40,177 nt of DNA from Acidobacteriota bacterium (GTDB lineage: Bacteria; Acidobacteriota; Blastocatellia; UBA7656). Under the pieces are notes generated by a model. That model was not told the DNA's origin, did not search any database, and saw only the letters and a list, made by a program, of their open reading frames with translations. Every line of letters starts with the position of its first letter. The stretch's first letter is position 1. Below, in pieces: positions 319-38,252 of the stretch. The DNA lies in contig JACQDB010000124.1 in the NCBI GenBank assembly GCA_016201275.1, positions 1-40,177 of the forward strand, read 5' to 3'. The position numbers were made by a program, and so were the translations under genes.

Positions 319-3300
319 CTATTCAACAATCACGCGGTCAGAGCCTGAGCGTCCGAAGGTTTCCGGGTGGTACATCTCTTCGGCCTTTGCTGGCGGCACG
401 ACGAACTCTCCGGGCGTTGTGGCTCTGGCAACATACGAGTAATTGTAAACGCCTTCCCACAACAGAGACGCGAAGGCTTCGACTCGTTCATCGCGCAAAT
501 TCTGATGCTCGTACCAGGTACGCCACCACCACCAATAGCCGCCTTGCGCGCCACTGCCATTAGGGTCTTGCGGAATGCTGCCGGTGACCGCAAGCGCCGG
601 GTTTAACGCTTCAAGCCCCGCCGGAATCGGATCAACCAGGGCGACGTGATAACGCCTTGATTGCGCTACCATCGTCAACTTGACGCGCACTTTCGCCCCC
701 GCCTTGATGCGCCACGTCCCATCGGCATCGCGCTTCACATCGTCGGCCTTGTCTATCGCTTCATACTTGCGCTCAACGGTGAAACCGTAATCCGCCGGGT
801 CTAGTTTCAAACTCGTTGGCGCATACTGCATTCCTACGCGATAGTACAAACGCCCGGCACCTTCTTTGCTGAGGATCAAATTCTGCGCGCCGTTTTGCTC
901 AAGCAAATACTTCATAGGCACATTGAAGTTGAAGCGATTGATTGAGCGACCTTTGAATGTCGTGTCGCCCGCATAAGTTTGCCCAAGCCAAGCGCGAGCG
1001 ATGAAATCAGGCGTCACCTTTTCATAAGTGTTGAAGTATTTGTCTAAGGCCAGCAACACAAAAGCGTTCTCCTGCGTGTTGCCCCAGCGCCCTTCTGTGC
1101 GATGCGCCAACAAGCCGCGCACGACCTTCGGAATCAAATCATTGCTCGGCTGATCTTGTATCAAGGCTTCCAGAATCACGCCATCGGCGCGGCGGTCGGA
1201 ATGCAACAACAGATAGTTGCTGTCAGAGTACGATGTCACGAAATGGGCTGTGGCAGCCTCTTCCGTGGCGCGGTTGTTCAAATGCTGACGCATCGCCGCG
1301 ACTTCCGCACGCGAGTTTGCCTCGTTGCTCAACACCGACAACAACCAGCCGACGGCTTCGAGTGAAAGTTTTTCCAGCGTCGCTTCAGCAATCAAGCGTC
1401 GCGCTCTCGCCGCATCTTTATCGCCTAAGCGATTGCGAACATAGAGCGCGTAGGCAATCAAAGCGCGGCGCGAATCAATGCCGTAATAGCTCGGAATTTT
1501 GCTTTCGATGTTTCGCAGATAATCCTTCGAGCGGTTCAGCATATCGTCCGGCACATCGAAGCCTTTTTCTTTGGCGCGTTGCAAAGCGTGAGCAACGTGT
1601 ATGCTCAGGTACGGCCAAGTTTCGTCGCCGCGTTTCCAGAAGCCAAAGCCGCCATCGCCGTTTTGCATTCCCTGCAAGCGTTTGATGTCGCGCTTCACAG
1701 CCGCAACCATCGCATCGGGACTCGGCAGGTCTTTGGCTTTGAAGGCGGTCAGCACATCTTTCAAAGCGGCTATGGACATGATGCGCGATGACAATTGCTC
1801 CGAACATTCATACGGATAGGCGGTCAAATACAACACCGCGTCAGTCAACTCTTGAAGCTGTGTTGAAGAAGTGGTGACTTCTAGACCGCCGTATTGTTTG
1901 ATAGCGTCCGAAGGCGCTTTGATCGGTTGAATGATTGCGCCGTTGTCCAATTCGCCGTAGGTAGCAAAGGCTTCGGTAGTCGCAGGCGTCCACACCGGCA
2001 AAGAAACTTCCGCCGCGTCCGCCCATTCGCCCGATGCCGCAGCAATTTGAAAACGTGCGGTTCCGGCTTTCATTGCCGAAGTCGGGAAGCGCACCTCTAC
2101 GCGGTCATTAGCGGGAATGGTGACGCGACGACCGCCGCCGTCCGTGAGTTCGGCGTTTGATGCGCGCACCGCTACGGCGACATCCATCGGAAAGTCTGTC
2201 TGATTTTGCAGCACCACAGGCAATTCAAACTTATCGCCGAAATTCAAGAAGCGCGGCGCGGACGGGCGCACCATCAAAGGCAGACGAGCGGTGAGGTTGG
2301 TTTCATTCATGCCGAATTGTTTGCCGCCAGCGACCGCGACCGCCATCACGCGATAGCGCGTCAGGTTGTCCGGCAATTTGACCTGCACCGTGGCGCGGCC
2401 ATCCGAATCAGTCTTCACTGTCGGCGCGAAGATTGCCAGCGGATTGAAATTCTCGCGCACATTGATGGGGGTATCTGTACCGCCATCTTTCTCACCCGGC
2501 GCTTTGGCTTTCATGGCTTTCATAGGCGCTGGCGACGCGGCTGATGGCATACGCATACGATTACTATCTGTGACGATGTAAGCTATATCGCCTGCCAAAT
2601 TGCTTCCCCCATTCTGCTGCAACTGACTAAGCAAATCATCGGGTCTGGCGAGCAACACTCGTTCGCGCAGATGATAAGCACTGGTGTCGGCGCTGCGCTG
2701 TGAATAAAACGTATAAAGCGGGTCGCCTACGCGATAGCCTGTCAGTCCCAAAATCGCTTCATCAACCACGACCAACGCGACTTCGCTTCCAGACACCGCG
2801 TTGCCTTTGTCGTCTTTCACCTCGATGGCAATCGAAGTCTCTTTGCCGGGTTCCGTTGCTTTATCTTTTGGCGTGGCTTTCACCGTGAGCTTTCTCGACA
2901 GCGGCGGAATCGTCAGGTTCAACGAGCCGACGCCATACGCAGGGCGTTTCGGCAAAGTCTCTTTCGGTTTGCCTGCGTCATCGGTTCGCACTGCCGCGCC
3001 GACCACATCAACCTGAACATTGAGGTTCGGCGTGTAGGCATCTTTAATCGGTATCTTCAACGTATGCGAAGCGGTGTTCATCGTGAAGCGCTCGGTCGAA
3101 ATAATTCCAGACCGTTGCAAGGTCAACACCGCTTCGGCAGGAAAGAACGGCGCTTGCACTAAAATTTCCGCCGTGTCGCCGGGCTTGTACTCTTTCTGAT
3201 TTGGTATCAGTTGCACCTCTTCCTGTTCGACATCGCGTTTCGGCAAGACCTTGCCACCCGCTACCCACAAGGTCAACTCGCTTTCGTTGCGGCGTTCGCG

Positions 3301-6300
3301 GTCATCGTAAATGGTCGCGGTAATTTGATACTGTCCGCCTTCTTTGCTCTCGAACTGAGTTTCGACAGCCTCACTGGCGGATTTCAAATCGCGCTCTTGC
3401 GGATTGACTTCTTTTTGTTTCCACTCGCCTTTTTCCTGCACCCAATCGAGCAACACGGCGCGCACTTTGACATTGCGACCGGCGATGGCTTTGCCGTCCA
3501 AATCCGTGACGATGGTTTGGACTACGAGTGGTTCGCCTTTCTGCACGAAGGTGCGCGGACTGCGTATGCCTACATAGAGGTTCGCCGGATGCACCAACAA
3601 ACTTGATGAAGCATTCCACGCTTGGCGATTGACATCGGTGACGCTGGCTTCGGCGGTAATGGTGTACGGCCTGGGCGGGTCTGCCGAAATAAAATCAAGG
3701 TGCAAGCGATGTTTGCCCGCCGCATCGGTTCGCGCTGTGAAGGTTTGCGCCGACGAGGCGTCGCTTTGATTATATGAACGCCACCACGGAATCCATTTGC
3801 CGAAAGTGAAATCGTAACGATTCGGCGGCGTGTAATAAGCGGGTGTCGAACGCACCACCCAATTGACATCGGCATTGGGCAAACCGCCGCCTGCGTAATA
3901 AGCCGCTGTCACCGACACCTCTGCGCCGCCGCCTACGAAGTGCGGGCCTTCGCTGGCTTGCGCCGACACTTCAAATTCCGGGCGACGAAATTCCTGCACT
4001 TGAAATTGATGATTGAAAGTTCTGCCTTCCACGCCGCCGCGACTGCCTTGCGCTTCGAGTTGCAGATTGGTGTAGCCCAAATTCATCGTGCCGGGTAATT
4101 TCAACACCGCATCGAAACCGCCAAGCGCGTTGACTTGCATAATGCCTTTGGTGATTTCGTTGCCGCGTGAATCGCGCAGCACATAACTGATGCTGGTCGC
4201 TTCGCCATCGAGCGCCATCACGTCGCCATCTTTGCCCGCGCCTATGCGCCGTAACCAGCCTTTGAGGTGAACCTCTTCGCCGGGCTTGTACATCTTGCGG
4301 TCATCGAAGACGAACCAGCGCAGCGAATCGGTCAAGGGCTTGCGATACCAGTTGCCGTCATTGTTCCACCAGTAAATATTTTCCGGCAGCATGGCCACGT
4401 CTTTGCCTTTGCGGGCGACCAATAAACCGAAACCATTTTTGCCGCTGCGGTCAGGCAGAGCGATTTTAGCAAGGCCGTTGGCTTGCGTGATGCCGTTGGC
4501 GGTCGAACCGGGCAGCGACAATTGCACATCGTCCAGGGGCTTGCCGTCTTTCAACGAATTCGCCCAGCCAATTAAATCGCTGTTATCAACGAAAGCATCC
4601 AGGCCGATTTGCGTAGCCTGCAACCACGCTTTGATCGTGCGATTTTCCCAGCGATTTTTCGCTTTCACCGGCGGCTCTACGACGATGACGATTTGCCCGA
4701 AGCCGCCATCAAGAGCGGGGGCAAGGTCTATGCGGGTTTCGGCCATCTCATCGGGCTGGGCTTTGACGACTACCGAATTGGCGTAAACCAGTTTGCCGGG
4801 CGGCGGCGCGGGCTTGTTGTCGTTATCGTGCATGAACGCTCCGAACGCCTGCCAGTCTTCGGGCGCAACTTTGTATAGGCGCACTTTCAACGAATCATAG
4901 TTGATGCTGTAAACCGAAAAACGCGGCGTTGCCGTTGGGTCAAGGACTATGAAGTTGCTGCCCGACGAAGCCAATGCCGGAGGTGCGGATTTCACGTTGA
5001 AAGTAATCGGAGCGGTGTTGCCTAGGGTTTGGTCGAATTGATCTTTTATGGTTGGCGAAAGTTGCACGCGATAAGTCGTGCGGCCTTTCTTGATGCCTGT
5101 GATGACCAGGGTGTTGCCATACACCGCAGTCTTCATGCCTTCGATGGCCGGTTCGACTTTTACCTGTGCGGAGTCGAAGGCTTCTGCCTGAATCGGATTG
5201 GTGAAGTTGATCGTCCATTGATCGAAGGGCGAGCAGTTGTCGTTATAACCGCAACGCGATTCGGTGACGCGAAACGCGCCGTAGGTGCGAAACGAAAACG
5301 CTTGCGGCGCGGTGGTTTTCTTTGGCCCTTCGGCAGAAGGCGTACCGGCGGCAACCGTGACATTGACATTTGAATCTACTGGCAACATGGCTTTGTTGCC
5401 ATTGGCGTCAACCACACGAAACGCCAGCCAGCGATTTTTTTCGGCGTACTTCGCCAGGCTGCTGATGGTGTTGTCGCTATTGATTTCAGCTTCGCTGGCC
5501 AGTCTCAATTTGAATGGGGTGCTGCCCGAAGTGACTTTGATATTGGCAAGCACGGCTTCGGGATTGATGCGTTGATCGAAGGACACGAACATCAAAGGGT
5601 CGCGGCGCTGCGGTCCGTCATTGGGAAAATGCGCCTGCATTTGCGGCGGCGGTGTGGCGAAGCGAAAACTCTTTGCCGCCCCCAAACTGGCTCCTGTAGC
5701 CGATTTCGTGCCAGCAGGTATCGTCACCGTGTAATCGGTAGCGGCAGGAAAGCGTTGATCGTCGGCGGCTTCAAAGAGCAAAGTTTTGGTTCCTACCCAG
5801 CGCCATTTGCCCGCTGGTTGCGGCGTTAATTGCACGGGAACATTTTGCGCCGCGTCGCTTTGTGAAGTGACGGCAATCATCGGTTGCGAAAAAGTGACGC
5901 TGACTTGCGGCACCAAAGGCACATTGCCTTCGGGCGCAAAGCGCAACACCTGCAAAGGCACGTTGGGATTGTTATTCGCCTTGACCTCGGGCGGCGCGAG
6001 CGCTGTGGGCGAGGGAAAAGGGGTTTGAAGAGTTTTGCCGGTGCGCGGCGGCGGCAAGGATTTATCGCGTATGGCAAAATCCTGTTCATCGCTGGCGTCG
6101 CTTGTGATGGGTTGCAGCCGCTTCAACAAGTTTTGCGTTTCGTCATCGGCAAGTTTAGCGGCGACCGCTTGCGGCGGTCGGTCTTGCCGCGCAGCATTTT
6201 CGCTGCCTTCACTCAATTTGAATTGTAGTCCATTGGTCATGGGGTTCTGAACTCCTGCGGGGGTTGGGCGGCGCGGCGCTACACGGCGCTGGGCGTAGGC

Positions 6301-6381
6301 GTTTTGCTCTATGGCAAAAAGCGGCACGCATTGAAGTAAAATTAGTAAAGCGCAAAGGGTTTTGTGGTTGCACATCTTCAT
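319..6381 (-). CDS. Bacterial alpha-2-macroglobulin family protein, CSEQ thioester
   Basis: A 2020-residue secreted protein resembling bacterial alpha-2-macroglobulins, which trap proteases in the periplasm or at the cell surface. A signal peptide (about residues 1-31, ending near AYAQ) follows an ATG with GAGGAG about 8 bases upstream. Ig/MG-like domains fill the N-terminal half, including a KMYKPGEEVHLKG stretch near residue 690. A short Ala/Lys-rich segment before residue 1308 sits where the bait region is expected. The thioester motif is C1526-S-E-Q, keeping the Cys and Gln of the bacterial CxEQ pattern, and is followed by an alpha-helical thioester domain and a C-terminal receptor-like domain. 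No PbpC-like partner lies beside it. It is transcribed divergently from the RiPP cluster. Family call is confident; the target protease is unknown. Confidence 0.92.
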   Translation of the reverse strand: MKMCNHKTLCALLILLQCVPLFAIEQNAYAQRRVAPRRPTPAGVQNPMTNGLQFKLSEGSENAARQDRPPQAVAAKLADDETQNLLKRLQPITSDASDEQDFAIRDKSLPPPRTGKTLQTPFPSPTALAPPEVKANNNPNVPLQVLRFAPEGNVPLVPQVSVTFSQPMIAVTSQSDAAQNVPVQLTPQPAGKWRWVGTKTLLFEAADDQRFPAATDYTVTIPAGTKSATGASLGAAKSFRFATPPPQMQAHFPNDGPQRRDPLMFVSFDQRINPEAVLANIKVTSGSTPFKLRLASEAEINSDNTISSLAKYAEKNRWLAFRVVDANGNKAMLPVDSNVNVTVAAGTPSAEGPKKTTAPQAFSFRTYGAFRVTESRCGYNDNCSPFDQWTINFTNPIQAEAFDSAQVKVEPAIEGMKTAVYGNTLVITGIKKGRTTYRVQLSPTIKDQFDQTLGNTAPITFNVKSAPPALASSGSNFIVLDPTATPRFSVYSINYDSLKVRLYKVAPEDWQAFGAFMHDNDNKPAPPPGKLVYANSVVVKAQPDEMAETRIDLAPALDGGFGQIVIVVEPPVKAKNRWENRTIKAWLQATQIGLDAFVDNSDLIGWANSLKDGKPLDDVQLSLPGSTANGITQANGLAKIALPDRSGKNGFGLLVARKGKDVAMLPENIYWWNNDGNWYRKPLTDSLRWFVFDDRKMYKPGEEVHLKGWLRRIGAGKDGDVMALDGEATSISYVLRDSRGNEITKGIMQVNALGGFDAVLKLPGTMNLGYTNLQLEAQGSRGGVEGRTFNHQFQVQEFRRPEFEVSAQASEGPHFVGGGAEVSVTAAYYAGGGLPNADVNWVVRSTPAYYTPPNRYDFTFGKWIPWWRSYNQSDASSAQTFTARTDAAGKHRLHLDFISADPPRPYTITAEASVTDVNRQAWNASSSLLVHPANLYVGIRSPRTFVQKGEPLVVQTIVTDLDGKAIAGRNVKVRAVLLDWVQEKGEWKQKEVNPQERDLKSASEAVETQFESKEGGQYQITATIYDDRERRNESELTLWVAGGKVLPKRDVEQEEVQLIPNQKEYKPGDTAEILVQAPFFPAEAVLTLQRSGIISTERFTMNTASHTLKIPIKDAYTPNLNVQVDVVGAAVRTDDAGKPKETLPKRPAYGVGSLNLTIPPLSRKLTVKATPKDKATEPGKETSIAIEVKDDKGNAVSGSEVALVVVDEAILGLTGYRVGDPLYTFYSQRSADTSAYHLRERVLLARPDDLLSQLQQNGGSNLAGDIAYIVTDSNRMRMPSAASPAPMKAMKAKAPGEKDGGTDTPINVRENFNPLAIFAPTVKTDSDGRATVQVKLPDNLTRYRVMAVAVAGGKQFGMNETNLTARLPLMVRPSAPRFLNFGDKFELPVVLQNQTDFPMDVAVAVRASNAELTDGGGRRVTIPANDRVEVRFPTSAMKAGTARFQIAAASGEWADAAEVSLPVWTPATTEAFATYGELDNGAIIQPIKAPSDAIKQYGGLEVTTSSTQLQELTDAVLYLTAYPYECSEQLSSRIMSIAALKDVLTAFKAKDLPSPDAMVAAVKRDIKRLQGMQNGDGGFGFWKRGDETWPYLSIHVAHALQRAKEKGFDVPDDMLNRSKDYLRNIESKIPSYYGIDSRRALIAYALYVRNRLGDKDAARARRLIAEATLEKLSLEAVGWLLSVLSNEANSRAEVAAMRQHLNNRATEEAATAHFVTSYSDSNYLLLHSDRRADGVILEALIQDQPSNDLIPKVVRGLLAHRTEGRWGNTQENAFVLLALDKYFNTYEKVTPDFIARAWLGQTYAGDTTFKGRSINRFNFNVPMKYLLEQNGAQNLILSKEGAGRLYYRVGMQYAPTSLKLDPADYGFTVERKYEAIDKADDVKRDADGTWRIKAGAKVRVKLTMVAQSRRYHVALVDPIPAGLEALNPALAVTGSIPQDPNGSGAQGGYWWWWRTWYEHQNLRDERVEAFASLLWEGVYNYSYVARATTPGEFVVPPAKAEEMYHPETFGRSGSDRVIVE

Positions 6382-10612: not shown

Positions 10613-10650
10613 TTTTTTTTGAGCAGGAAACCGTTTCGCAAGGAGGAATT

Positions 10651-12099: not shown

Positions 12100-12117
12100 G
12101 AAGCTGTTTGAACTGTG

Positions 12118-12440: not shown

Positions 12441-12569
12441 ATGGCGGAAAAAGATGTTCAAATCATGCCGATTAACTCAAACATCCTGACAGGCATCACC
12501 ATTGATGAGTTGGAAGATCGCTTGGAGATGCAGTTGCTCGGTTTGTTCGATGTGCTGGCGCTGTCGCAG
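12428..12569 (+). repeat. 142-bp direct repeat, copy 1 (RBS plus leader)
   Basis: Identical base for base to 12726-12867. It contains the AAGGAGGAAAATT ribosome site and codons 1-43 of the precursor. Identity stops exactly at the CAG codon 43, where leader ends and core begins. Zero divergence means recent duplication, gene conversion or an assembly artefact. Confidence 0.95.
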
Positions 12570-12674
12570 CCAAACGGTTTAGCGGAGAATATTTTCGCCT
12601 ACACCGCTTTTCAAGAGGTTCCCAGACCATCTGTGTTAGAGGGTGAGGGCTGGCAACAGGCTCTTATCCTCTAA
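12441..12674 (+). CDS. RiPP precursor peptide, copy 1
   Basis: A 77-residue peptide with a strong AAGGAGG site. Residues 1-43 form an acidic, leucine-rich leader (ITIDELEDRLEMQLLGLFDV), an amphipathic helix suited to binding a PqqD-like domain. Residues 44-77 form the putative core. It is cysteine-free and contains F52, Y54, F57, R62 and W71 and ends in Leu-Ile-Leu. The absence of Cys argues against thioether crosslinks; aromatic-centred C-C or C-O links, epimerisation, methylation or Arg-to-ornithine conversion remain possible. The position between radical SAM genes and a PqqD/M50 gene, and the duplicated leader with a different core, are typical of RiPP precursors. I do not recognise the leader as a named family. 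The leader/core boundary is inferred from the repeat boundary. Confidence 0.8.
   Translation: MAEKDVQIMPINSNILTGITIDELEDRLEMQLLGLFDVLALSQPNGLAENIFAYTAFQEVPRPSVLEGEGWQQALIL
12636..12674 (+). promoter_or_regulatory. 15-bp RNA hairpin ending the first precursor
   Basis: Bases 12636-12650 pair with 12660-12674 over 15 consecutive positions (twelve Watson-Crick, three G-U) around a 9-base loop. The TAA stop is the base of the stem. There is no U tract, so it is more likely an mRNA stabiliser or attenuator that adjusts precursor-to-enzyme ratio than a terminator. Confidence 0.6.
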
Positions 12675-12676
12675 AC

Positions 12677-12725
12677 CAGAGATGTCGGCTTGCGCGCATC
12701 TCTGACATCAACCTGCTGCGGCAGG
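12677..12725 (+). promoter_or_regulatory. Two hairpins before the second precursor
   Basis: CAGAGATG (12677-12684) pairs with CATCTCTG (12697-12704). CCTGC-TGCG-GCAGG (12712-12725) then ends right at the ribosome site of the second copy. Together with the preceding hairpin, the 64-base spacer is almost fully structured, which could limit read-through or translation of the second copy. Confidence 0.5.
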
Positions 12726-12867
12726 AAGGAGGAAAATTATGGCGGAAAAAGATGTTCAAATCATGCCGATTAACTCAAACATCCTGACAGGCATCACCAT
12801 TGATGAGTTGGAAGATCGCTTGGAGATGCAGTTGCTCGGTTTGTTCGATGTGCTGGCGCTGTCGCAG
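12726..12867 (+). repeat. 142-bp direct repeat, copy 2 (RBS plus leader)
   Basis: Exact second copy of 12428-12569, offset 298 bp. Its right boundary lies inside a small palindrome (12859-12879), which may mark the recombination point. Confidence 0.95.
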
Positions 12868-12879
12868 ATGGAGCGACAG
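12859..12879 (+). repeat. Palindrome across the leader/core junction
   Basis: CTGTCGC (12859-12865) and GCGACAG (12873-12879) form a 7-bp stem with a 7-base loop. The junction between duplicated leader and unique core DNA (12867/12868) lies in the loop, so this palindrome may have promoted the rearrangement that produced the frame change. Confidence 0.5.
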
Positions 12880-12890
12880 TTTCAACGACC

Positions 12891-12921
12891 TGGATGAGGG
12901 GATTGCTGAACCCCTCATCCA
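12891..12921 (+). promoter_or_regulatory. Perfect 11-bp hairpin with 9-base loop
   Basis: TGGATGAGGGG (12891-12901) and CCCCTCATCCA (12911-12921) are perfectly complementary. The in-frame TGA of the short reading lies in the left arm. There is no T tract right after it (a run of T occurs only about 25 bases later), so attenuation or mRNA processing between precursor and M50 gene is more likely than full termination. Confidence 0.6.
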
Positions 12922-12996
12922 GCGTTGCGGTTGGGGATTCGGAAAACTTTTTTGGGATGAAAACGGTCATCCTGAGTCTGCCAATGGGGAGTTGGA

Positions 12997-14358
12997 ATGA
13001 GCATAGACCAACTGATGCTATCGTTGCCGGAAGGCTGTTCGCTGTGGCGCATTGATACCAGCTTTGTCGAAACCCAATGGTTGTTGGTGACGCCGAACAA
13101 TCGCAAATTTCAGGTCTCTGCCAAAGCCAGTGATGTGATTTCGGAAATCCTCGACGAGCGCAAATCGCTTGCCGATCTTGCCAATACGCTGTCGGCGAAA
13201 TGGCAGGTTCCGGTCATGTCGGAAGATGTGTTGACCATCATTGAATCGGCTTACTGGCCGCAAGATTTGTTGAGAAAATCAACGCCCTGGGAATCCGAAG
13301 CAGTGTTGGAAGCGTCCATTGCAGAGCGCACAAGCAAATCTCTATTCGGAGATTTTTTTATACGCTTCACGGTACTCCCGGAGGCGGTTGTCCGCCGCAT
13401 AGCCGCACACTTGACCGGACTTTACCATCACGGCATTGCCCTGTTGTTGCTCGTCGCCATTGTCGGCGTGCATTTTTTGCTATTCCGTTATTTGGCCGCG
13501 CAGCCTTCTTGGGCGGCAACCTTGAGCTTGTCGCCTTCGCAATATGTAGCGGCCTTTGGCCTGATGGTCGGCAGCGTGCTGTTTCACGAATTGGGTCACG
13601 CAACGGCTGCCGCTGCCTTTGGGGTTCAGCCGGGAGCCATTGGCTGCGGCATCTATTTTATTTACCCGGCATTTTATACCGAGTTGGGTTTTGCCTGGTT
13701 ATTGCCGCGAGGCAAGCGCATGGTGGTTGATGTAGGCGGCTTCTACTTTCAACTGCTCACCACGCTGCCGCTTTATCTGGCCTTTTTCCTGAGCGGCAGC
13801 CGCGTTACTGTACTGGTTATCTTGTCTATAGATTTTCTGATCGGCTTTTCGCTGATCCCATTTTTCAAGTTTGATGGTTACTGGTTACTAGCCGATTTAT
13901 TGGGCATACCGAATCTGCAAAAGCACGCTATGGAATTGCTCGGCAGTCCGCAAAAGATTGTTCGCAATAAATTTTTCACCACCAAAAAGGGCTTGCAGTT
14001 GCCGCGCTGGTTGTCGTTGTCGTTGTTGGTTTATGGCGCGCTTTTTCTGCTCTTTCAAATCGGCATTGCCTTGTTGATTTTCAAAAATGGTCCGGCCTTT
14101 ATTTTTGCTGCGCCGGTAAAATTTTATACCTTAGCGCAGGAATTGTTTGCGGAGGTGGCTGCCGGACAACTTATGCTTGCCGCCCAACAAGGCATACGAA
14201 TCCTGATGTTGCTGGTCACTACACTGGCACTGATTTTGATATTCAAAAGTTACCTCAGACTTTTTCTTTATTGGGGCAAGAAGTATGGCAATCGCTTATG
14301 GCGTGCGAGCGCAGGCGTAAGCGCATCGGCAGTTTCTGAAGGGAGAAATCACCAATGA
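12997..14358 (+). CDS. M50-family membrane metalloprotease with PqqD-like N-terminus
   Basis: A 453-residue integral membrane protein. Residues 1-95 resemble a PqqD-type winged helix (RKFQVSAKASDVISEIL, then a LADLANTL helix), a RiPP leader-binding module. Several membrane segments follow. One contains the zinc motif H197-E-L-G-H201, and a FDGYWLLADLLGIPN segment with D293 supplies the likely third ligand, as in site-2-protease relatives found in RiPP clusters. The probable job is cleavage of the leader at the membrane, possibly coupled to release. The ATG overlaps the +1-frame stop of the second precursor core (ATGA), and its own stop overlaps the next gene the same way. A purely transport role cannot be excluded. 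Confidence 0.85.
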   Translation: MSIDQLMLSLPEGCSLWRIDTSFVETQWLLVTPNNRKFQVSAKASDVISEILDERKSLADLANTLSAKWQVPVMSEDVLTIIESAYWPQDLLRKSTPWESEAVLEASIAERTSKSLFGDFFIRFTVLPEAVVRRIAAHLTGLYHHGIALLLLVAIVGVHFLLFRYLAAQPSWAATLSLSPSQYVAAFGLMVGSVLFHELGHATAAAAFGVQPGAIGCGIYFIYPAFYTELGFAWLLPRGKRMVVDVGGFYFQLLTTLPLYLAFFLSGSRVTVLVILSIDFLIGFSLIPFFKFDGYWLLADLLGIPNLQKHAMELLGSPQKIVRNKFFTTKKGLQLPRWLSLSLLVYGALFLLFQIGIALLIFKNGPAFIFAAPVKFYTLAQELFAEVAAGQLMLAAQQGIRILMLLVTTLALILIFKSYLRLFLYWGKKYGNRLWRASAGVSASAVSEGRNHQ

Positions 14359-15473
14359 ATTATACCTACACCAAAACCGAATTTGTGGAATTTTACCAGC
14401 AAATAGGCATTGAAATTGGTCGCCTATGCAATGCCCGATGCGAGCATTGCATCACCTATTCCGGCCCCAAGAATAAAGAGAAGATGGAGCCGACCATGTT
14501 GCGGCGCATCTTGAAAGAGGCAGGCTCATTGGGCTTGCCGCACGTCGAAATTACCGGCGGCGAACCCTTTCTCTTTCTCGATGAGTTGGAGGAAATCATC
14601 GCGCTGGCAAAAAGCTATGGGATGCGAACCGGCATCACTACCAATAGCTCTTGGGCGACCAAGCATGAAAGGGCTGTGAAGATTCTGATGCGCCTGAAAG
14701 CTGCCGGGCTGGTGCGCTTGCGTTTCAGCATAGACCAATATCATTTGAATTACATACCGTTGGAACGAGTCGAAACGGCGGTCAAAGCGGCGGCAGAAGT
14801 TGGCATCTATCCGCTGATTGAAGCGGCGGTGGGGCGCAAAGACTATCGCGCCTACGAAGCGGTGCATCGCTTGAAGGCGCTGGCCGTGGAATTGAAGATG
14901 TGTGAATTGCTGCCCTTTGGCAGAGCCGCCGAATTTGCCCCTGAAACTTTTTTCAGCGGCTCGTTTTATCAAGTGGCGCATACGCCTTGTCCTACGGCTG
15001 GGGTTCCGGTCGTCGAAAACGATGGGCGCGTGCTGTTGTGCTGCACCTATCCGGTGGCGCAAGACCCCAACGATATGGAAAGCCCCTTTGTGTTGGGCAG
15101 CACCAAAGAGGAATCCTTAGCCGATATTCTAGCTCGGCATCTCTACAACCCGCTGTTGCGAGTTCTGCGTTATGAAGGGCCGGGCGGTTTGCTGCGGGTT
15201 TTGGAAGAGGGCTATGGCAAGAAACAATATAAACCCAGAGAGCTTTATCCTGGCAGCATCTGCACGCTGTGTGCAGACATGATGGATCATGTGAATCTCA
15301 GAAAACTCTGGCACGAGACGGTTGCCCAGCACGATATGACCGCGTGGTTTACGCCGCCGGTTGATATGGAGCATCGCCCCGTCGAACAAGTCAGGATGGC
15401 AAACGCGCAGAGCAAATCGCGCAGCCTGCCCATCGTCACCTTGAGTTGCGGCGATTCGCACCCGCACCAATGA
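14355..15473 (+). CDS. Radical SAM enzyme with SPASM/twitch-like C-terminus
   Basis: A 372-residue enzyme with C25-NAR-C29-EH-C32, then VEITGGEPFLF as the SAM-contacting GGE motif. C-terminal cysteines (CPTAG, LLCCTYP, CTLC) suggest a SPASM or twitch auxiliary cluster. It lacks the N-terminal domain of the enzyme at 10651 and is closer in size to single-domain peptide epimerases or crosslinking enzymes, though the reaction cannot be told from sequence. ATG overlaps the M50 stop (ATGA), and its own TGA overlaps the start chosen for the next gene, so the three are translationally coupled. Last radical SAM gene of the cluster. Confidence 0.9.
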   Translation: MNYTYTKTEFVEFYQQIGIEIGRLCNARCEHCITYSGPKNKEKMEPTMLRRILKEAGSLGLPHVEITGGEPFLFLDELEEIIALAKSYGMRTGITTNSSWATKHERAVKILMRLKAAGLVRLRFSIDQYHLNYIPLERVETAVKAAAEVGIYPLIEAAVGRKDYRAYEAVHRLKALAVELKMCELLPFGRAAEFAPETFFSGSFYQVAHTPCPTAGVPVVENDGRVLLCCTYPVAQDPNDMESPFVLGSTKEESLADILARHLYNPLLRVLRYEGPGGLLRVLEEGYGKKQYKPRELYPGSICTLCADMMDHVNLRKLWHETVAQHDMTAWFTPPVDMEHRPVEQVRMANAQSKSRSLPIVTLSCGDSHPHQ

Positions 15474-30090: not shown

Positions 30091-30108
30091 ATAGGGAAAA
30101 AATCTTTG

Positions 30109-31020
30109 ATGATGAGCCGAAACTTGCTGAAAAAAATCTTGTGTGCCATAGCCGTTCTCTTGGTTTTCGAGAACGGCTATGCGGTTTCTGTGACCACGAA
30201 CACCAATTGGTTCGCGGAAATCCCCGTCGAGTTTACTGGCCAGCACATACTGATTGCCGTGAAGATTAACGGCCAAGGACCTTATGAAATGCTGCTCGAC
30301 ACGGGCGCAGATTTTTGCCTGATCAAGATGACTGTGGCGCAAGAGTTGGGTTTGCAGATTGATGACAAAGAACTCCTGCTTGGTGGCGTCGGCTTAGGCA
30401 AAGCCAAAGCGCGTTGGACCAAAGTTCAAACCCTTGAAGTCGGAGAAGTGACCGTCAAAGAGTTGAAAATTATGGCTGCGGAGATTACGCCAAAAATCAA
30501 GAACGCTCCGGTGGCGGGCATTATCGGCTTCAATTTCTTTAAAGACAAAATCTTTCAAATAGATTACGCGGCGCAGAAGTTGCGCTTTTATTCTTCTGCG
30601 CCTGTCAAAAAATCGGCAGCGCAAACCGAGCGTCGGGCTATTCTTGCGATGCGTTTCAATGGCACGCGGCGCATCCCTGTCATTGATGTTGTCGTCAATG
30701 ACAAGCGCCTGAGCGCAAGCCTTGATACTGGTTCAGCCTCCGCGCTAGTGCTCTTTCCTGAAACCACAAAGATGCTTAATCTCGAAGCCGAGGCGAACAA
30801 GTTGAAGCCCAAAGTCTCATTCGGTTACGGCGGCGTAACCCTGACGCGAAAAGGCGAAGTGCAGAAATTAGCCATTGAAAAAATGGTGTTAGAAAAAGTC
30901 GCCGCCGAATTCGCCATGCAGGCTTGGGACAAAGACGATTCGCAGGTCGGCAACGGCGTGTTGAAGAATTTTGCCGTGACCTTCGATTACAAAAACAAGC
31001 TCGTGGTTTTTGAAAAATAG
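30109..31020 (+). CDS. Exported retropepsin-like aspartyl protease
   Basis: A 303-residue protein with a signal peptide (about 1-25, LLKKILCAIAVLLVF). It has two pepsin-like half-domains with LLDTGADF (D64) and SLDTGSAS (D206), giving a complete Asp dyad within one chain. This matches the bacterial PDZ-less aspartyl-protease-like family; activity is likely but not shown. It starts 18 bases after the SDR stop, so probably the same transcript. The signal-peptide codons contain a long perfect palindrome (separate entry). Confidence 0.85.
   Translation: MMSRNLLKKILCAIAVLLVFENGYAVSVTTNTNWFAEIPVEFTGQHILIAVKINGQGPYEMLLDTGADFCLIKMTVAQELGLQIDDKELLLGGVGLGKAKARWTKVQTLEVGEVTVKELKIMAAEITPKIKNAPVAGIIGFNFFKDKIFQIDYAAQKLRFYSSAPVKKSAAQTERRAILAMRFNGTRRIPVIDVVVNDKRLSASLDTGSASALVLFPETTKMLNLEAEANKLKPKVSFGYGGVTLTRKGEVQKLAIEKMVLEKVAAEFAMQAWDKDDSQVGNGVLKNFAVTFDYKNKLVVFEK
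30147..30181. repeat. Perfect 13-bp inverted repeat inside signal-peptide codons
   Basis: CATAGCCGTTCTC (30147-30159) and GAGAACGGCTATG (30169-30181) flank the 9-base loop TTGGTTTTC. A 13-bp perfect stem about 40 bases into a coding region is unusual and could act as an mRNA switch or operator. On the minus strand it is followed, ten bases on, by a T run. Confidence 0.8.
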
Positions 31021-31298
31021 GCGCACCGACATCAATCATTCATAACCCTTGCTCACTGTAGAAATGGTTTGCGCTGAGTCTTTTCGCACCGGTTTCTGCA
31101 AGAACTTCTCCGTCTTGTCATTCTTCCGATCAGCAAACCCGTGACATACTTAACCGCTCACTGTGGGAAGAAGCACACGCATTATGAAGATATTGCCCGA
31201 CCGTCTGGCCAGCTAATCCCATACTTTTCTGCCAGCCAATCCAGCGGATGTAGAGGCAAGGTTTCTGAGCCGTGATGGCTTTAGAGGAGGATACGAAA

Positions 31299-34200
31299 AT
31301 GAGAAGTGCCGTTTTACGATGGTTGTTGGTCGTCGGCTGTTTGTCCGTCGCTTTGGTCTTGCCCTTTCTTGCCGCGCCGTTGCCACCTGCGGTAAGGGAA
31401 ACAGAGATGCGCGCAGAACTCAGCCGCGACGGGGTTACTATCCTAGTGCCCATCACGCAACGCAGTGGCGCAACTCCGGCAACCTTGACGCTCGAATTGC
31501 TCGATTCAACAGACCATAAACTCGCCGAAGCAACCACTCGCATCACCCTCAAGCAAGGCGAAAACGTCAGCCGCCTGCGCCTGCTCTGGCCGCAATTTGC
31601 CGAGGCGAAAGATTGGCAAGGGCGCTACGATATGCTCTCTTGGACGCGTGTGCAGTATCGTTTGAGCAGCGCTGAAACGCCGCACGCCGGGGCGCTTGAA
31701 GTGAGCGGCAAGCGCTCGCTCGCCTTGATGTTGAACGAGTGGTTCACGCTCCGAGTCATCGCGCCGAACGACCCGGCGCAACGCCTGCCCGCGCAGGTTC
31801 GCGTCTTTGCTGAAAATCCTTTAACCGGCAAGCCGGTCACCGGCGTTCGCATAGAAGCCAGCCTCACTCGCCAAGATGACGAGGAAAAAAGAATGGACTC
31901 GGTGGTGAAAAGAGGCGTCACCGATGCCGCTGGCAGCGTCGCTTTTGCTTTGTCGCCGCCGACTTTGCCCGACGATGAAAGCGACAAGGAGATCACCTGC
32001 GAGTTGAAAATCATCGCCATGCGCGGCGTCTTGCGCGTGGAAGATGAGCGCGATATTGATTTCCACAATCGCACAGAAGCCATCCTCACCACTGACAAAC
32101 CGCTGTATCAGCCAGGGCAAATGCTCCACCTGCGGACTCTGGTTTACGATTCGTTTTCCCACCTGCCGCGTCCGGCGGAAACCGTCAGCGTAGAGATTGA
32201 AGACGCCGCCGACCAGACCGTTTTTGAACGCCAGTTGGTCACCGACCGTTTTGGTGTGGCCTCTGCTGATTGGGCGATTCCGGCAACTGCGCCGCTCGGT
32301 TCATACCACATCAAAGTGGCGCGCCCGGACGATGACGAAATAGAAAGCGCCAACGTGCGCGTCAGTCGCTACGAATTGCCGACCTTTGTGGTTGACGTTG
32401 AGCCGGATAAATCTTTCTACTTGCCTGAACAAGATGCGAAGGTGAAAGTGACAGCGCGATTCGTGTATGGCGAACCGGTCAAAGCGGGGCGCGTCCGCGT
32501 GGCGCGTGAAGAGAGCCGCAAGTGGGATTTTGCCAAGCAGAAGTGGGAGGTGAAAGAAGGCGCAGTGTGGGAAGGCGAGACCGATGCCAGCAGCGCTTTT
32601 GTCGCGCAAATTCCGCTCGCCGAAGAACACGCCAGTTTCAAAGATGAGGAATATGAAAAGTACCAAGATGTTGAATACGTGGCGCGCTACACCGAAGCGG
32701 CATCGGGTCGCAGCGAAGAGCGGCGCTTTCGTTTGCGACTGACCAAACAAGCGATTCATCTTTATACCTTTTCGACCGACAGTCAGCAAACGCCGGATTT
32801 GCCGCTGCGTTTTTATGTGTTGGCAAATTATGCCGACGGCACTCCTGTGGTTGCCGATTTAGCGATTTCGGCCACCCCGAACAAGACCCGTCCAACGGCT
32901 GAGGCAACCCCGGTTTTCACTCTGCAAGCGCACACCGACCGCCACGGCATTGCTTTGATTGAGACGGCGGCGAAGTTGAACAGCGCCCAAGACCTGCGCC
33001 TTGAAATTCAGGCGCGTGACACGAAACAGGCTACAGGAGCCATTTCTGAGGTGTTGCCGATTTCGGATGACGAAGTTTTGCGAGTGCAGACCGAGCGCTC
33101 GCTGTATCATCAAAATCAGCCGCTGCGCGTAGCGATTCAAGCGTCGGTCAAAAAAATTCCGCGACTCTTCGTTGAACTGTTTGCCGGTGACCGCCTCATC
33201 CGCTCGGAAACGGTCGCCGTGCAGGACGGGCGAGCGAGCGTGGAATTCAAACCGGGAAGCGATTTGCAGGGGCGCATCAACATCATCGCGTATGATCCGG
33301 AAGAGGACACTTCGTACATCTGGCAGGCCAAGCGTTTTGCCATGCTTGCGGTGCTGTATCCGGTGCCGCGCACGCTTGCCATCAAAGCGCGATTCGAGCG
33401 CGACGCGGTGAAACCCGGAGAAGCGGCACACGCTATCTTCACGGCCAACGCGCCAAATGGCGCAGGGCGCGAAACCTCGCTAGGCGTTGTCGTCTATGAC
33501 ACGGCGGTTGAAGAGCGCGAACGCACGGAGTGTGAAACGGGGCAAGGGCGCGATGATTTCCGGCGCTTCTATGCGCGGTTGCTGCAATGGTCGCAAGGGC
33601 TTGCCGATGTTTCCTTGGCGACGCTTGAGCAGCTTGACGAGTCGAAGCCTTTTCCCGCCGACCTGGAATTAATTGCCGGTGCGTTGTTGCAGCGCCTCGA
33701 CTATCGCTACACCTTTCGCTCGTATGCGGCGCGCATAGAGAGCGGCGAGGTGCGTTCCGAGTTTGAAAATTTGCTTGACCCCTTGAAAGCGACCCTCGAT
33801 TTTATTCTCACCCGACCGTCGCCTTCTACTTATCCGCGCACGGCGGAAAGTTTGTTGGCGCTGCTGGCAAAGTACGGCGTGCGGTTGGAGCAGATGACCG
33901 ATTTCTGGGGCAATCCTTATCAAGCGAAGTTTGCCGTGCGCGGCACCAACTACGCGATTACGCTTTCATCCAACGGCCCGGACGAGCAGGCCAACACCCG
34001 CGACGATTTCGATTTGATCGCCCATTCGCGCAGCTTTTTTGAAGAACATTATAAACAGGAAATCGCTGCCGCTATAGACAATTTCAAAGCCCATCACGGA
34101 CGCTTTCCCGGCAATGTTGCGGAAGTGATCGGCGAGTTGAATTTTCGCCGTGCGACGTTTTTACCGGCGAAAGACCCTTGGGGCGAGCCTTATCAACTGC

Positions 34201-37200
34201 GTTATGAAGCGTCGCGCCAGGATTCGTTTTATGAATTGCGCGTAGTGTCTTCGGGGCGCGACCGTCAGTTTGATAAAGAATCTTTCGGTGATGACTTGAC
34301 GCTCTTTGACCTGAAGCGCGATTGGTTTGCCGAGACGCGGGAAGCGATTCGGCAAGCGCTCAATGCGCGCTTTGCGGCAACTCAGGAGTTCCCAGCCAAC
34401 GAAGCGGAGTGGCTTGCTCTGCTTAAATTTTCGAAGATAGATTTTTCCCGTTTGCGCGATGCTTGGGGACAGCCGCTGCGCGTGAGTTTCAAGGAATCTT
34501 CTCGCTACGGCAGGCGAACGCGCATCGAAAAAGTTGCGGCAACGCCGAACGCTCCCGCCGTTGATAAGGTGGTTTCGGAAGCGGTGACGCGGCGCATACG
34601 CACAATCTGGATTCAGGTTGCCACGCCGCCCAGTCTGGCAATGAGGCTTGCCGGATTGAAAGAGCCTGTGAGTTTTCCCCTAGCTACCTACGAACAGGTG
34701 GTCGGCGAAGAATCACAGGACGAGGTGTTGAAAGAGAAGAATTCATCGAATGATGCCAAGCAGGGAAGTGAGGCAAACTCATCAACGTCGCAGCGCCGGA
34801 AAGTTTTTCCAACCGGATTGGCCGGAGCGATCACCGGCGTTGTCTCCGACCCCAGCGGTGCAGTGGTGTTGGGCGCAATCGTGACGCTGACCAATTCATC
34901 AACCGGCGCGGTGTTGACGACGACCACAGATGATACCGGCAACTACTCGTTCACCAGTTTGAGTCCGGGCAAGTATGCCTTGCGGGTGGATCTGCAAGGG
35001 TTCAAATCAAGCACCATCGAGAGCCTTGAGGTGCGGCTTTCCGCAACCACGATTGCTGATGTCACACTTGATGTAGGAGTGACAAGCGAGACCGTGAATA
35101 TCACTGCGGGGAGTGCAGCGTTGTTTCAGACAGACCGGGCAGAAGTTTCTTCAGTGTCGAGTGTTCGTAAAGATGTGGTAAATAATCTGCCGCTGCCGCA
35201 ACGCCCCAATCAAGTCTCAACGCCCAGGCTTAGGCAGGACTTTCCTGAAACATTGGTTTGGCAGCCATCGCTTGTGACCGATGCGTTGGGCAGGGCAGAG
35301 ATTAAATTTAATGTCGCCGATTCGATCACCACCTGGCGCATGGCGGTCATCGGTTCAACCGCAGATGGAATGATTGGCACAGCCACGGCAGAGCTGCGCG
35401 CTTTTCAACCGTTCTTCGTCGAACACCTGCCGCCGCCATCGCTCACCCTTGGCGATGAAATCGAAACCCCGGTCGTGGTTCGCAATTATCAAGAGCGCGC
35501 CGCCGATGTGACAGTGAAACTTGCGCCCGCCGCGTGGATGCAAGTTCTCGGCAGCGCAGAGCAAACTCTGCACGTCGCCGCCAACGATTCCGCCACTGCG
35601 CCCATCGCATTTCAGGCAATAACGGCGGGCGATTTTAAACAAGAAGCGGCGGCTATCGGCAGCACTGACGGCGACCGCGTAGCCAAACCCGTCGCGGTGC
35701 GTTTCGATGGGCGCGACAGTTGGCAGACCCGCGCCGATTTGTTTCAAGGCGAAACGACGATGGTCGTGAACGTGCCGAGCGATGCGCTGACCGATTCGAC
35801 GCGCCTAGAGTTGAAGGTTTATCCCGATTTATTCGCGCACGCGATTGATGGCATCACCGGCATTGCGCGGCGTCCTTACGGCTGCGCTGAACAGGCGACC
35901 AGCGCGGGCTATACGAATTTGATGGTCTTGCAATATCTCAAACGCACAGGCCGCAAGCTGCCCGAAGTTGAAAAAATCGCCAGGCGAAATCTTGAAGAAG
36001 CAATTGCCCGCCTGCGTTCCTTCGCTACCGCAAGCGGCGGCTACTCGTATTTCGGCGAGGCCAATTCGGATATGGCAGTCACGTCTTACATATTGCGTTT
36101 CTATGTTGAAGCCGCCGCCTTCACGCCGGTTGATAATGCTTTGATAGCAGGCGTGCAGCGCTATTTGGCGCACCAACAGCGTGCCGATGGCGCTTGGGAA
36201 TGGAACGGTTATTGGCAACACGAAAAATCAATTGAGCAGACCAACCGACTCACCGCGCTGGTGGCGCAAGCGCTGGCGCAAGCGCAAGCTTCAACAGCGC
36301 CAGCTTCGCCTACTCAAACTTCAACAGCGCCAGGTGCGTCAACATCTGCCGCGAAGCAAGAGGTTGATGAGCCGCAGAAGGCTTTGGCGAAAAGTTTGGA
36401 TTTCCTCGCACGCGCCACCCGCGAGCGTGATGATGCTTACACGCTGGCGCTTTATGTGATGGCGGCGCAACAGGCCGGACGCACAGCAGCGGCGCGTGAA
36501 TCGGCAAAAGCGTTGCTGCCTATGGCGCAAGCCGAAGCAGGCGCGCTCTTTTGGGATGTTGAAAACGTCACCCCTTTTTATGGTTGGGGGCGAGCCGGTC
36601 GCCTGGAGACCACCGGCCTTGTGGTGGAAGCTTTGATGTCGGTCAGTAACCAGCCGCAACCGGCGACCCGTATCAGCGCGCCAGAAGAGTTGGAAGCGGC
36701 GGTGCGGCGCGGCTTGCTCTTCGTGGTGCAGAACAAAGACGAATACGGCGTGTGGTATTCAACCCAGGCCACGGTCAACGCCTTGCGCGCATTGATTGCG
36801 GCTTCTTCTGCGGAAGACTTGGCGCAAACGACCACTCAGCTTGCCGTCAGCGTTGATGGCAGCGCCGCGCAAACGCTTGCGATTCCCTTCGCTGTGGGCG
36901 CGCCGTCAGTATTCGATTTGCAGGCGCTCTTTCCTCAAGCGTTCCATGCAGCGGGCAAACATCGCGTCGTCTTGCGCGCCGATTCATCGCGCCATGTGAG
37001 CGCCACGATTGTCGCACGCAGCGCTTTGGTGTGGAATGATAAAGATGCGAAAGGCATAAGCGACAACGGTGGGCTGCGTTTGCGCGTGAGTTTTGACAAG
37101 ACCGAAATCAAGCAAGGCGAGACCGTCACTTGTACGGTTCACGCCGAGCGCGTGGCGGCTGCAGGGTATGGCATGATGCTGGCGGAAATTGGCTTGCCGC

Positions 37201-37439
37201 CCGGCGTCGAGGTTGATGTAGAGAGTTTGCGTCGCGCTCCCGTGTTGAAGTACGACGCCACCCCTGATCGCGTGATCGTTTATTTGTGGCCAGCGGCAGG
37301 CGGCAGCGATTTCACGTTCACTTTTCGCCCACGCTTGAAAATCAAGGCGAAGGCACAACCGTCGCAACTCTATGATTACTACAACCCGGATGCTCGCGTT
37401 GCCGTTCCACCGGCACGGTTTGTCGTAAGCCAGAAATAG
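31299..37439 (+). CDS. Alpha-2-macroglobulin-like protein with chimeric insert
   Basis: A 2046-residue exported protein; start chosen because GAGGAGG lies 8 bases upstream. Signal peptide at about 1-28. MG-type domains follow (TDKPLYQPGQ near 265). Residues about 805-1090 contain three related units with DFWGNPYQ, KDPWGEPYQ and RDAWGQPLR, resembling the C-terminal domain of type II secretion pseudopilin GspG. Residues about 1174-1300 are a carboxypeptidase-regulatory domain (ITGVVSDPSGAVV) and a RAEV-xx-LPLPQRP segment like the start of acidobacterial TonB-dependent proteins. The A2M core resumes at DFPETLVWQP (about 1312). The thioester is C1529-A-E-Q. An Ala/Ser/Thr/Pro linker (about 1662-1690) with a 15-bp repeat interrupts the thioester domain. 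Confidence 0.9.
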   Translation: MRSAVLRWLLVVGCLSVALVLPFLAAPLPPAVRETEMRAELSRDGVTILVPITQRSGATPATLTLELLDSTDHKLAEATTRITLKQGENVSRLRLLWPQFAEAKDWQGRYDMLSWTRVQYRLSSAETPHAGALEVSGKRSLALMLNEWFTLRVIAPNDPAQRLPAQVRVFAENPLTGKPVTGVRIEASLTRQDDEEKRMDSVVKRGVTDAAGSVAFALSPPTLPDDESDKEITCELKIIAMRGVLRVEDERDIDFHNRTEAILTTDKPLYQPGQMLHLRTLVYDSFSHLPRPAETVSVEIEDAADQTVFERQLVTDRFGVASADWAIPATAPLGSYHIKVARPDDDEIESANVRVSRYELPTFVVDVEPDKSFYLPEQDAKVKVTARFVYGEPVKAGRVRVAREESRKWDFAKQKWEVKEGAVWEGETDASSAFVAQIPLAEEHASFKDEEYEKYQDVEYVARYTEAASGRSEERRFRLRLTKQAIHLYTFSTDSQQTPDLPLRFYVLANYADGTPVVADLAISATPNKTRPTAEATPVFTLQAHTDRHGIALIETAAKLNSAQDLRLEIQARDTKQATGAISEVLPISDDEVLRVQTERSLYHQNQPLRVAIQASVKKIPRLFVELFAGDRLIRSETVAVQDGRASVEFKPGSDLQGRINIIAYDPEEDTSYIWQAKRFAMLAVLYPVPRTLAIKARFERDAVKPGEAAHAIFTANAPNGAGRETSLGVVVYDTAVEERERTECETGQGRDDFRRFYARLLQWSQGLADVSLATLEQLDESKPFPADLELIAGALLQRLDYRYTFRSYAARIESGEVRSEFENLLDPLKATLDFILTRPSPSTYPRTAESLLALLAKYGVRLEQMTDFWGNPYQAKFAVRGTNYAITLSSNGPDEQANTRDDFDLIAHSRSFFEEHYKQEIAAAIDNFKAHHGRFPGNVAEVIGELNFRRATFLPAKDPWGEPYQLRYEASRQDSFYELRVVSSGRDRQFDKESFGDDLTLFDLKRDWFAETREAIRQALNARFAATQEFPANEAEWLALLKFSKIDFSRLRDAWGQPLRVSFKESSRYGRRTRIEKVAATPNAPAVDKVVSEAVTRRIRTIWIQVATPPSLAMRLAGLKEPVSFPLATYEQVVGEESQDEVLKEKNSSNDAKQGSEANSSTSQRRKVFPTGLAGAITGVVSDPSGAVVLGAIVTLTNSSTGAVLTTTTDDTGNYSFTSLSPGKYALRVDLQGFKSSTIESLEVRLSATTIADVTLDVGVTSETVNITAGSAALFQTDRAEVSSVSSVRKDVVNNLPLPQRPNQVSTPRLRQDFPETLVWQPSLVTDALGRAEIKFNVADSITTWRMAVIGSTADGMIGTATAELRAFQPFFVEHLPPPSLTLGDEIETPVVVRNYQERAADVTVKLAPAAWMQVLGSAEQTLHVAANDSATAPIAFQAITAGDFKQEAAAIGSTDGDRVAKPVAVRFDGRDSWQTRADLFQGETTMVVNVPSDALTDSTRLELKVYPDLFAHAIDGITGIARRPYGCAEQATSAGYTNLMVLQYLKRTGRKLPEVEKIARRNLEEAIARLRSFATASGGYSYFGEANSDMAVTSYILRFYVEAAAFTPVDNALIAGVQRYLAHQQRADGAWEWNGYWQHEKSIEQTNRLTALVAQALAQAQASTAPASPTQTSTAPGASTSAAKQEVDEPQKALAKSLDFLARATRERDDAYTLALYVMAAQQAGRTAAARESAKALLPMAQAEAGALFWDVENVTPFYGWGRAGRLETTGLVVEALMSVSNQPQPATRISAPEELEAAVRRGLLFVVQNKDEYGVWYSTQATVNALRALIAASSAEDLAQTTTQLAVSVDGSAAQTLAIPFAVGAPSVFDLQALFPQAFHAAGKHRVVLRADSSRHVSATIVARSALVWNDKDAKGISDNGGLRLRVSFDKTEIKQGETVTCTVHAERVAAAGYGMMLAEIGLPPGVEVDVESLRRAPVLKYDATPDRVIVYLWPAAGGSDFTFTFRPRLKIKAKAQPSQLYDYYNPDARVAVPPARFVVSQK

Positions 37440-37492
37440 GTTGTTGCTTGTTGGCAAAGTCGGCGACTACAATAGCGAACCAGGAGAGTCTT

Positions 37493-37783
37493 ATGAATTC
37501 CATAACGATTGCCGAATTAGAAAGCGATGTGCGCGGCTATCTGAAAAAAGTCCGCCAAGGCGAAGAGGTGTTGATCAAAGTTCGTAATCAACCAGTCGCC
37601 AAGATTGTCCTGCTGACGAAGGCTGATGAATTGACCGAAGCCGAACTGGAAGAGCATATGCAGAAACTCGCGGCGCAAGGCCGATTGCGACTGCCCGAAA
37701 TTGAACCTGATGATGAGTTCTGGGAAAAATTTTGGGCGGAATACGCAACCTCGGATAATGAACCTTGCGTCTCTTCGGAGTAA
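37493..37783 (+). CDS. Phd/YefM-family antitoxin
   Basis: A 96-residue protein. Residues 1-50 match the Phd/YefM DNA-binding fold (SITIAELESDVRGYLKKVRQG, then PVAKIVLL), and the acidic C-terminal half (EPDDEFWEKFWAEY) would bind the toxin. AGGAGA precedes ATG 37493. The PIN gene follows 28 bases later, making a type II pair likely to repress its own promoter. Confidence 0.85.
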   Translation: MNSITIAELESDVRGYLKKVRQGEEVLIKVRNQPVAKIVLLTKADELTEAELEEHMQKLAAQGRLRLPEIEPDDEFWEKFWAEYATSDNEPCVSSE

Positions 37784-37811
37784 ATGATGGAAGCTGTCAG
37801 GTGGGCGCGTG

Positions 37812-38252
37812 ATGAAGACTAATGTTGCTTTTGGGGACACCAGTGCAATCGTGCCTTTGTGCATTTTTCAGGAGACCAGCCTTCAAGCGCGGCAAATTCA
37901 ACGAGCTTTCCCAAAATCTGTTGTCAGTTGGGAGACTCTTGTAGAAGCTTTTAGCGCCTTCAATCGCGCTTTGCGGAAGGGCGCGTTGACCCAAGCCAAA
38001 TATGGTTTGGCGAGCAAGCAAATTCTGGCGCTGCAAAAATCGTGGTTTGAAGTTCCGCCTGACAGCCTAGTGAAAAGTCAGGCAGTTGAGTTGCTGGAAA
38101 GCTATCCTTTGCGAACCGGAGATGCGTTGCAACTGGCCGCCGCAATGATGCGGTGCAAAGGCAAACCGCGCCATCGCGCCTTTGTCTGTTTTGATCTATT
38201 GCTGGCCGAGGTCGCAACGCAAGTCGGCTTCACCGTCGTCGGCTTGCAATGA
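37812..38252 (+). CDS. PIN-domain toxin (VapC-like)
   Basis: A 146-residue putative ribonuclease. The acidic PIN residues are visible in FGDTSAIVPL, WETLVEAFSAF, RTGDALQLAAAM and VCFDLLLAEVA. It directly follows the antitoxin gene. ATG 37812 is chosen; GTG 37809 is equally possible and neither has a strong ribosome site, consistent with translational coupling. Confidence 0.83.
   Translation: MKTNVAFGDTSAIVPLCIFQETSLQARQIQRAFPKSVVSWETLVEAFSAFNRALRKGALTQAKYGLASKQILALQKSWFEVPPDSLVKSQAVELLESYPLRTGDALQLAAAMMRCKGKPRHRAFVCFDLLLAEVATQVGFTVVGLQ

Follow-up and report, generated by a model that had tools for sequence, protein, structure and literature searches.

We report an alpha-2-macroglobulin (A2M) protease trap of a soil acidobacterium whose bait, in our judgement, is likely to be an exapted half-domain: the periplasmic N-terminus of an Oar-type TonB receptor. 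The gene lies at 31299-37439 of contig JACQDB010000124.1 (assembly GCA_016201275.1; Blastocatellia, UBA7656), the whole 40,177 nucleotides of which were analysed and are here called the window. Comparing its predicted product with Pfam and with receptor profiles, we show that the N-terminal extension of such a receptor (CarboxypepD_reg, here CPD), a TonB box and the start of the receptor plug stand immediately before alpha'NT, the segment that follows the bait, and behind three modules of GspG type (Table 1). Bait regions are usually regarded as featureless, fast-evolving peptides, whereas here the bait is an identifiable half-domain of the cell's own import receptors, in a family with members across the phylum.

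The product is identified by its domains as an exported thioester A2M. Its reading frame is intact, with a Shine-Dalgarno-like GAGGAGG at 31284-31290, about 9 nucleotides 5' of the ATG at 31299; residues are counted here from the in-frame GTG at 31272, and numbering from the ATG is lower by 9. Homologues begin with clearer AxA signal peptides than the copy in the window. Pfam found MG2, MG3, A2M, TED and A2M_recep above cut-off, and the order of domains is MG2, MG3, A2M_BRD, A2M/MG7, TED, A2M_recep; the thioester Cys-x-Glu-Gln is conserved in all 56 near-full-length members of the family. Between the end of A2M_BRD (746) and the start of A2M (1327) there are 580 residues, compared with 103 in the window's other macroglobulin, and therefore about 480 extra residues at the position of the bait, close to the roughly 450 that the initial annotation had seen between the macroglobulin (MG) domains and the A2M core. 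No TonB-box or plug motif was found in the bait of that other macroglobulin.

The C-terminal part of this insert is, from the evidence that follows, the periplasmic N-terminus of an Oar-type TonB-dependent receptor (TBDR), in which CPD, TonB box and plug piece belong together. A carboxypeptidase-regulatory domain had been proposed in the initial annotation, and Pfam identifies one of TonB-receptor type. In an AlphaFold model it has a transthyretin-like fold (residues 1185-1269), which VIA superimposed on the transthyretin-like domain of carboxypeptidase D (5aq0) with Z 11.1 and a root-mean-square deviation (rmsd) of 1.2 over 80 residues; our AlphaFold models were built on homologue alignments of 63 and 67 sequences. 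The RAEV/LPLPQRP stretch, previously taken for a segment of its own, is instead the start of a receptor plug (QTxxAEVSxV...NLPLNGRN). In this genome the Oar-type receptors combine CarboxypepD_reg with the PF25183 barrel; the N-terminus of such receptors consists of CPD_reg, then [ST]ETVxVxA, and then QTxxAEVSxV...NLPLNGRNxxxLLxLxPGV. The same parts stand in the same order in the A2M, at up to 47% identity, but the A2M has neither a barrel nor a full plug, and its receptor part is set inside a protease trap.

A profile of 169 columns made from the N-termini of 28 receptors of the same genome matched 79 of the 79 A2M family members found in Acidobacteriota (best E 1e-48), all of which have CPD, TonB box and plug stub; among the 69 members scored with Pfam, CarboxypepD_reg was found in 69 and T2SSG in 57. 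The match begins at column 1-2 in nearly every member, at column 5 in L068 and L113, and later in the fragments L123, L124 and L121 and the weak L094. Its C-terminal end is more variable (n=79): in 6 members it reaches the DGxD(NN) box (for example L053, L103 and L125), in 18 LxPGV, in 13 the helix, and in 42 the region of the TonB box. A VTKSG-like far end of the plug stands close behind the near end in eight members, which suggests that a plug originally longer was probably shortened by internal deletion; the ancestor probably held most of a plug. In the window copy the plug stub ends at column 123 and is followed by MG7, and the complete plug and beta-barrel are absent.

Several trivial origins were considered and rejected. 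Chance or low complexity is ruled out by the Pfam cut-offs and by the profile matches in 79 proteins, and an assembly artefact by the intact architecture in many independent genomes. Random capture of receptor DNA is likewise ruled out, because every significant match lies in the plug start: 55 baits match TBDRs with E below 1e-3, each match beginning 50-150 residues from the start of CPD, and none of these 55 has a significant receptor match in the following ~475 residues, which form the barrel part.

The region between CPD and MG7 (residues 1271-1323) is predicted to be disordered, with a pLDDT of about 33, and the bait peptide including the VxV of the TonB box is VTSETVNITAGSAALFQ. Across the family the bait, measured from the TonB box, has a median length of 37 residues (19-108); that of human A2M has 39. 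Conservation changes abruptly at its end: alpha'NT has ~81% pairwise identity, taken over residues 1317-1332, and a length standard deviation of 0, compared with 20.6% and 17 for the bait before it (lengths 17 to 106 in the alignment). The family form of alpha'NT is TPRLREYFPETLLW, with an invariant R..FPET. In human A2M, alpha'NT, with R732 and F735, follows the bait, threads a channel and retracts upon bait cleavage (PMC9352918), and the R and F of the family segment correspond to these two residues.

Because alpha'NT, the thioester and the other parts are conserved, we infer that the trap chemistry is conserved as well. Severed from the remaining plug and the barrel, the plug piece would be unable to fold, and for that reason would serve as an exposed bait. 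A protease cutting it would let alpha'NT slip from the channel, and this release would free the thioester to catch the protease covalently. The folded GspG-like modules and CPD may act as spacers, perhaps stiffened by calcium, that keep the bait extended outward. Thus the proposal that the whole insert is a new protease bait stands as regards its position, but only the disordered stretch derived from the plug is the bait proper, and the GspG-like modules and CPD are folded domains beside it.

The GspG-C-like units named in the initial annotation were recovered by Pfam T2SSG, by a profile search of PDB sequences and by VIA, so that for both borrowed domain types the profile and structure searches returned matches. 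The AlphaFold model has three tandem alpha/beta modules at residues 818-922, 923-1018 and 1019-1148. Pfam T2SSG scored 27.5 bits on the whole protein and 33.5 on the insert alone, against a cut-off of 21, and the profile search returned GspG proteins only (best E 8e-6). The top VIA rows were the GspG/EpsG/PulG pseudopilins 3g20, 3gn9 and 4lw9 (Z 5.9 to 4.2, rmsd 3.4-4.2, ~90 residues), with module 1 against 3g20 giving Z 5.9 and rmsd 3.4 over 93 residues; Foldseek, run with the triple alone, returned nothing at E <= 0.001. Although these Z values are modest, sequence and predicted structure agree, and on that basis the modules are GspG pseudopilin globular domains. They share with the major pseudopilin its globular fold, DPWGxPY and acidic calcium loop, but they occur three in tandem within another protein, directly after MG6, and neither a prepilin cleavage site nor the hydrophobic N-terminal helix was found in their sequence or model. 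The calcium-loop motif of 3g20 is GxDGxx[GN][TN]xDD (PMC3396595); of 69 family members, 29 match it strictly and 66 match a relaxed form. The window copy has two imperfect loops, the loop of its degenerate module 3 having been lost while most homologues keep theirs. A Pfam T2SSG search over the genome itself picked up a single other protein but missed the A2Ms, and that scan was therefore insensitive to their modules. In a distant acidobacterial genome, two frames (G105:C23:4546-5844 and 10650-11939) each contain several GspG-like units, and a single A2M there may have more than three.

Human A2M, A2ML1, CD109 and complement C3/C5 share with this protein the MG fold, the position of the bait or anaphylatoxin domain, the R..FPET of alpha'NT, the GCxEQ thioester, TED and the receptor domain. 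The human A2M bait is a short unrelated peptide, and C3 has an anaphylatoxin domain at that position; to our knowledge GspG, CPD_reg or a TonB box occurs in none of these proteins. Among bacterial proteins, YfhM (ECAM) of E. coli and Salmonella is also an exported thioester protease trap, and its A2M_BRD region aligns. ECAM differs in being a lipoprotein of the inner membrane, in having additional MG domains at its N-terminus and in its ordinary bait, whereas the A2M in the window has a probable signal peptide and TED and receptor domains of eukaryotic type.

The conservation of the TonB box raises the question of a further role. Columns V90 and V92 of the profile hold V or I in every one of the 79 A2Ms (information content 3.98 bits, compared with 3.5 in 57 receptors), and the 11-residue block around the box has a higher mean identity (42%) than the folded CPD (37%) or the bait (21%). 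Such conservation within a stretch predicted to be disordered speaks for a binding motif, although in the real protein the box may pair as a beta-strand. The bait might then also be recognised as the end of a receptor, by TonB itself or as a decoy by proteases of the outer-membrane gates. Tentatively, the box may be a ligand of the TonB C-terminal domain, or may lure proteases whose route or target is the TonB receptors and the type II secretion machinery. Matches to TonB_C number 13 in the genome, beside ~32 Oar-type receptors. Type II secretion also exports proteases. Oar of Myxococcus is required for the export of the protease PopC (PMC6434023), and both borrowed parts would thus come from protease gates, which is suggestive only. 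Moreover, the N-terminal extension of Oar together with its plug binds the C-terminal domain of TonB, and Oar contacts PopC, but PopC secretion persisted after deletion of that extension (PMC6434023). Against such roles, E88 of the box is weaker in the A2Ms (52 of 79) than in the receptors (49 of 57).

A second class of A2M bears on the same question. In these proteins, which have no CPD or GspG, the bait follows a FYYGxKR block and precedes an alpha'NT of VRNDFRSTVIW, and the baits hold pieces such as NLPLNGRKFNEISELKPGV, TESVTVTAGA and NYMMDGADV. With a receptor-only profile, 6 of 21 second-class baits scored above all 5000 shuffles, as did 0 of 13 control A2M baits. LPxNGR was found in 8 of the 21 (0.01 in shuffles) and TonB boxes in 11 (0.86 in shuffles), compared with 0 and 1 of 22 controls; these patterns were chosen after the baits had been viewed, and the set was retrieved by a query containing one such bait. 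An earlier domain-based sample already had receptor fragments in five second-class members. Second-class loci with TonB-box or plug fragments are G000:C11 (L005:11072-17095) and L214-L229. Of the four A2M genes of the genome, two lie in the window and the others on contig C11, where a paralogue (L005:3760-9924) also has three GspG-like modules, CPD and TonB box. There the two classes stand in tandem with 1.1 kb between them, and exchange between them is therefore possible. The fuller proposal, that a working TonB box docks the trap to TonB or turns it into a decoy that stands in for TonB receptors and the type II pseudopilus, the gates of the outer membrane, catching proteases that pass or attack them, and that two A2M classes arrived at the same solution, seems to us doubtful. 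We regard receptor mimicry or docking as a serious addition to the exapted half-domain bait, which is the most likely account. If the box works, the trap would be linked to the Ton system, and there would be a first clue to what bacterial A2Ms protect; if it does not, the bait would still be shown to originate as a domain fragment unable to fold alone.

The initial annotation had proposed looking for the same architecture in other Acidobacteriota, and the family proved to be spread over the phylum rather than unique to the window. In a species-wide scan, of which the best 80 loci were considered, the records are labelled as Acidobacteriota groups except for two, L117 and L066, the latter with Acidobacteria in the name of its scaffold; among these loci are some from the isolates Bryocella elongata and Granulicella rosea. 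When 297 genomes were drawn from across the phylum, 16 of them, from 13 genera, had the GspG modules, and the distribution is thus patchy. In a tree of CPD and TonB box, with 116 columns and forks mostly unresolved, the A2Ms required 5 label changes, compared with 42 in shuffles, or 2 with one long branch removed, and a single clade of A2M CPDs had a p-AU of 0.885. Repeated recent recruitment from each genome's own TBDRs is not favoured, because the A2M CPDs cluster and one clade is compatible; these sequences are most simply explained by one ancient acquisition. We found no paper describing the architecture in the open-access literature.

Alternatively, the inserted domains may be neutral passengers, left by a single ancestral fusion, in frame, with a gene family that is very common (~32 receptors in this genome), and kept because the site tolerates inserts, in a trap of ordinary function. 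The compatibility with one clade and the erosion of plug remnants fit this explanation, but we think it unlikely, since CPD, TonB box and three GspG modules are kept across families at 30-40% identity with little change in length, and the same receptor region occurs in the second class, including in genomes (for example G001 and G016) that gave no first-class match. Against the exapted half-domain as bait it must nevertheless be said that one fusion followed by erosion would account for the plug remnants without mimicry, that the VxV of the TonB box could be structural, though the model shows no order there, and that the CPD tree is small and poorly resolved. The recurrence of this build across Acidobacteriota may reflect a trap that mimics the gates of its own cell. 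An adhesion or surface-display module, the other role offered in the initial annotation, is very improbable: CPD/SdrD_B-like folds occur in adhesins too, but the nearest sequence relatives are TonB-receptor N-termini and GspG, the insert sits inside the A2M trigger region, and no anchor or other sign of adhesion was found.

Table 1. Features of the A2M gene and the comparison A2M, in window positions.
Feature	Position	Strand	Basis or remark
A2M gene	31299..37439	+	2046 aa from ATG; alternative in-frame GTG 31272
Probable Sec signal peptide MRSAVLRWLLVVGCLSVALVLPFLAAPLPP	31299..31388	+	read from sequence
MG2	32079..32363	+	Pfam PF01835
A2M_BRD (MG5/MG6 first half)	33078..33509	+	residues 603-746; Pfam PF07703, weak: 21.1 bits vs cut-off 22.7
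GspG-like module 1 (DFWGNPYQ; loop GPDEQANTRDD)	33723..34037	+	Pfam T2SSG 853-912; model; VIA
GspG-like module 2 (DPWGEPYQ; loop GRDRQFDKESFGDD)	34038..34325	+	T2SSG 20.7 bits on its own; model
GspG-like module 3 (DAWGQPLR)	34326..34715	+	family alignment; model
Variable linker	34716..34823	+	mean pairwise identity 15%
CarboxypepD_reg domain (N-terminal extension of Oar-type TonB receptors)	34824..35078	+	Pfam PF13620 E 8e-21, residues 1187-1266
TonB box SETVNITA	35085..35108	+	TBDR profile columns 87-94
Bait proper, 37 aa, plug-derived (GSAALFQTDRAEVSSVSSVRKDVVNNLPLPQRPNQVS)	35109..35219	+	TBDR profile match to column 123/169; pLDDT ~33
alpha'NT TPRLRQDFPETLVW	35220..35261	+	conserved, fixed length
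MG7 (Pfam A2M, residues 1327-1417)	35250..35522	+	Pfam
Thioester domain	35844..36794	+	Pfam TED_complement E 2e-29
Thioester motif GCAEQ	35880..35894	+	sequence
Receptor-binding / MG8 domain	37170..37397	+	Pfam A2M_recep
Comparison A2M, bMG10 type, ordinary short bait	319..6381	-	Pfam

Just upstream of the A2M gene (30106-31020) lies a gene for a retropepsin-like aspartyl protease with a signal-peptide-like start; it was rejected as a conserved partner, as it had no tblastn match in the related A2M loci that were fetched. Directly after the A2M gene (37448-38252) are genes for a PhdYeFM-like antitoxin and then a PIN-domain protein, likely a toxin-antitoxin pair. Elsewhere in the window, at 7058-15473, three radical-SAM proteins (one B12-binding, one SPASM) are interleaved with open reading frames of 417 and 453 aa that have no Pfam match, a stretch that may be a peptide-modification cluster.
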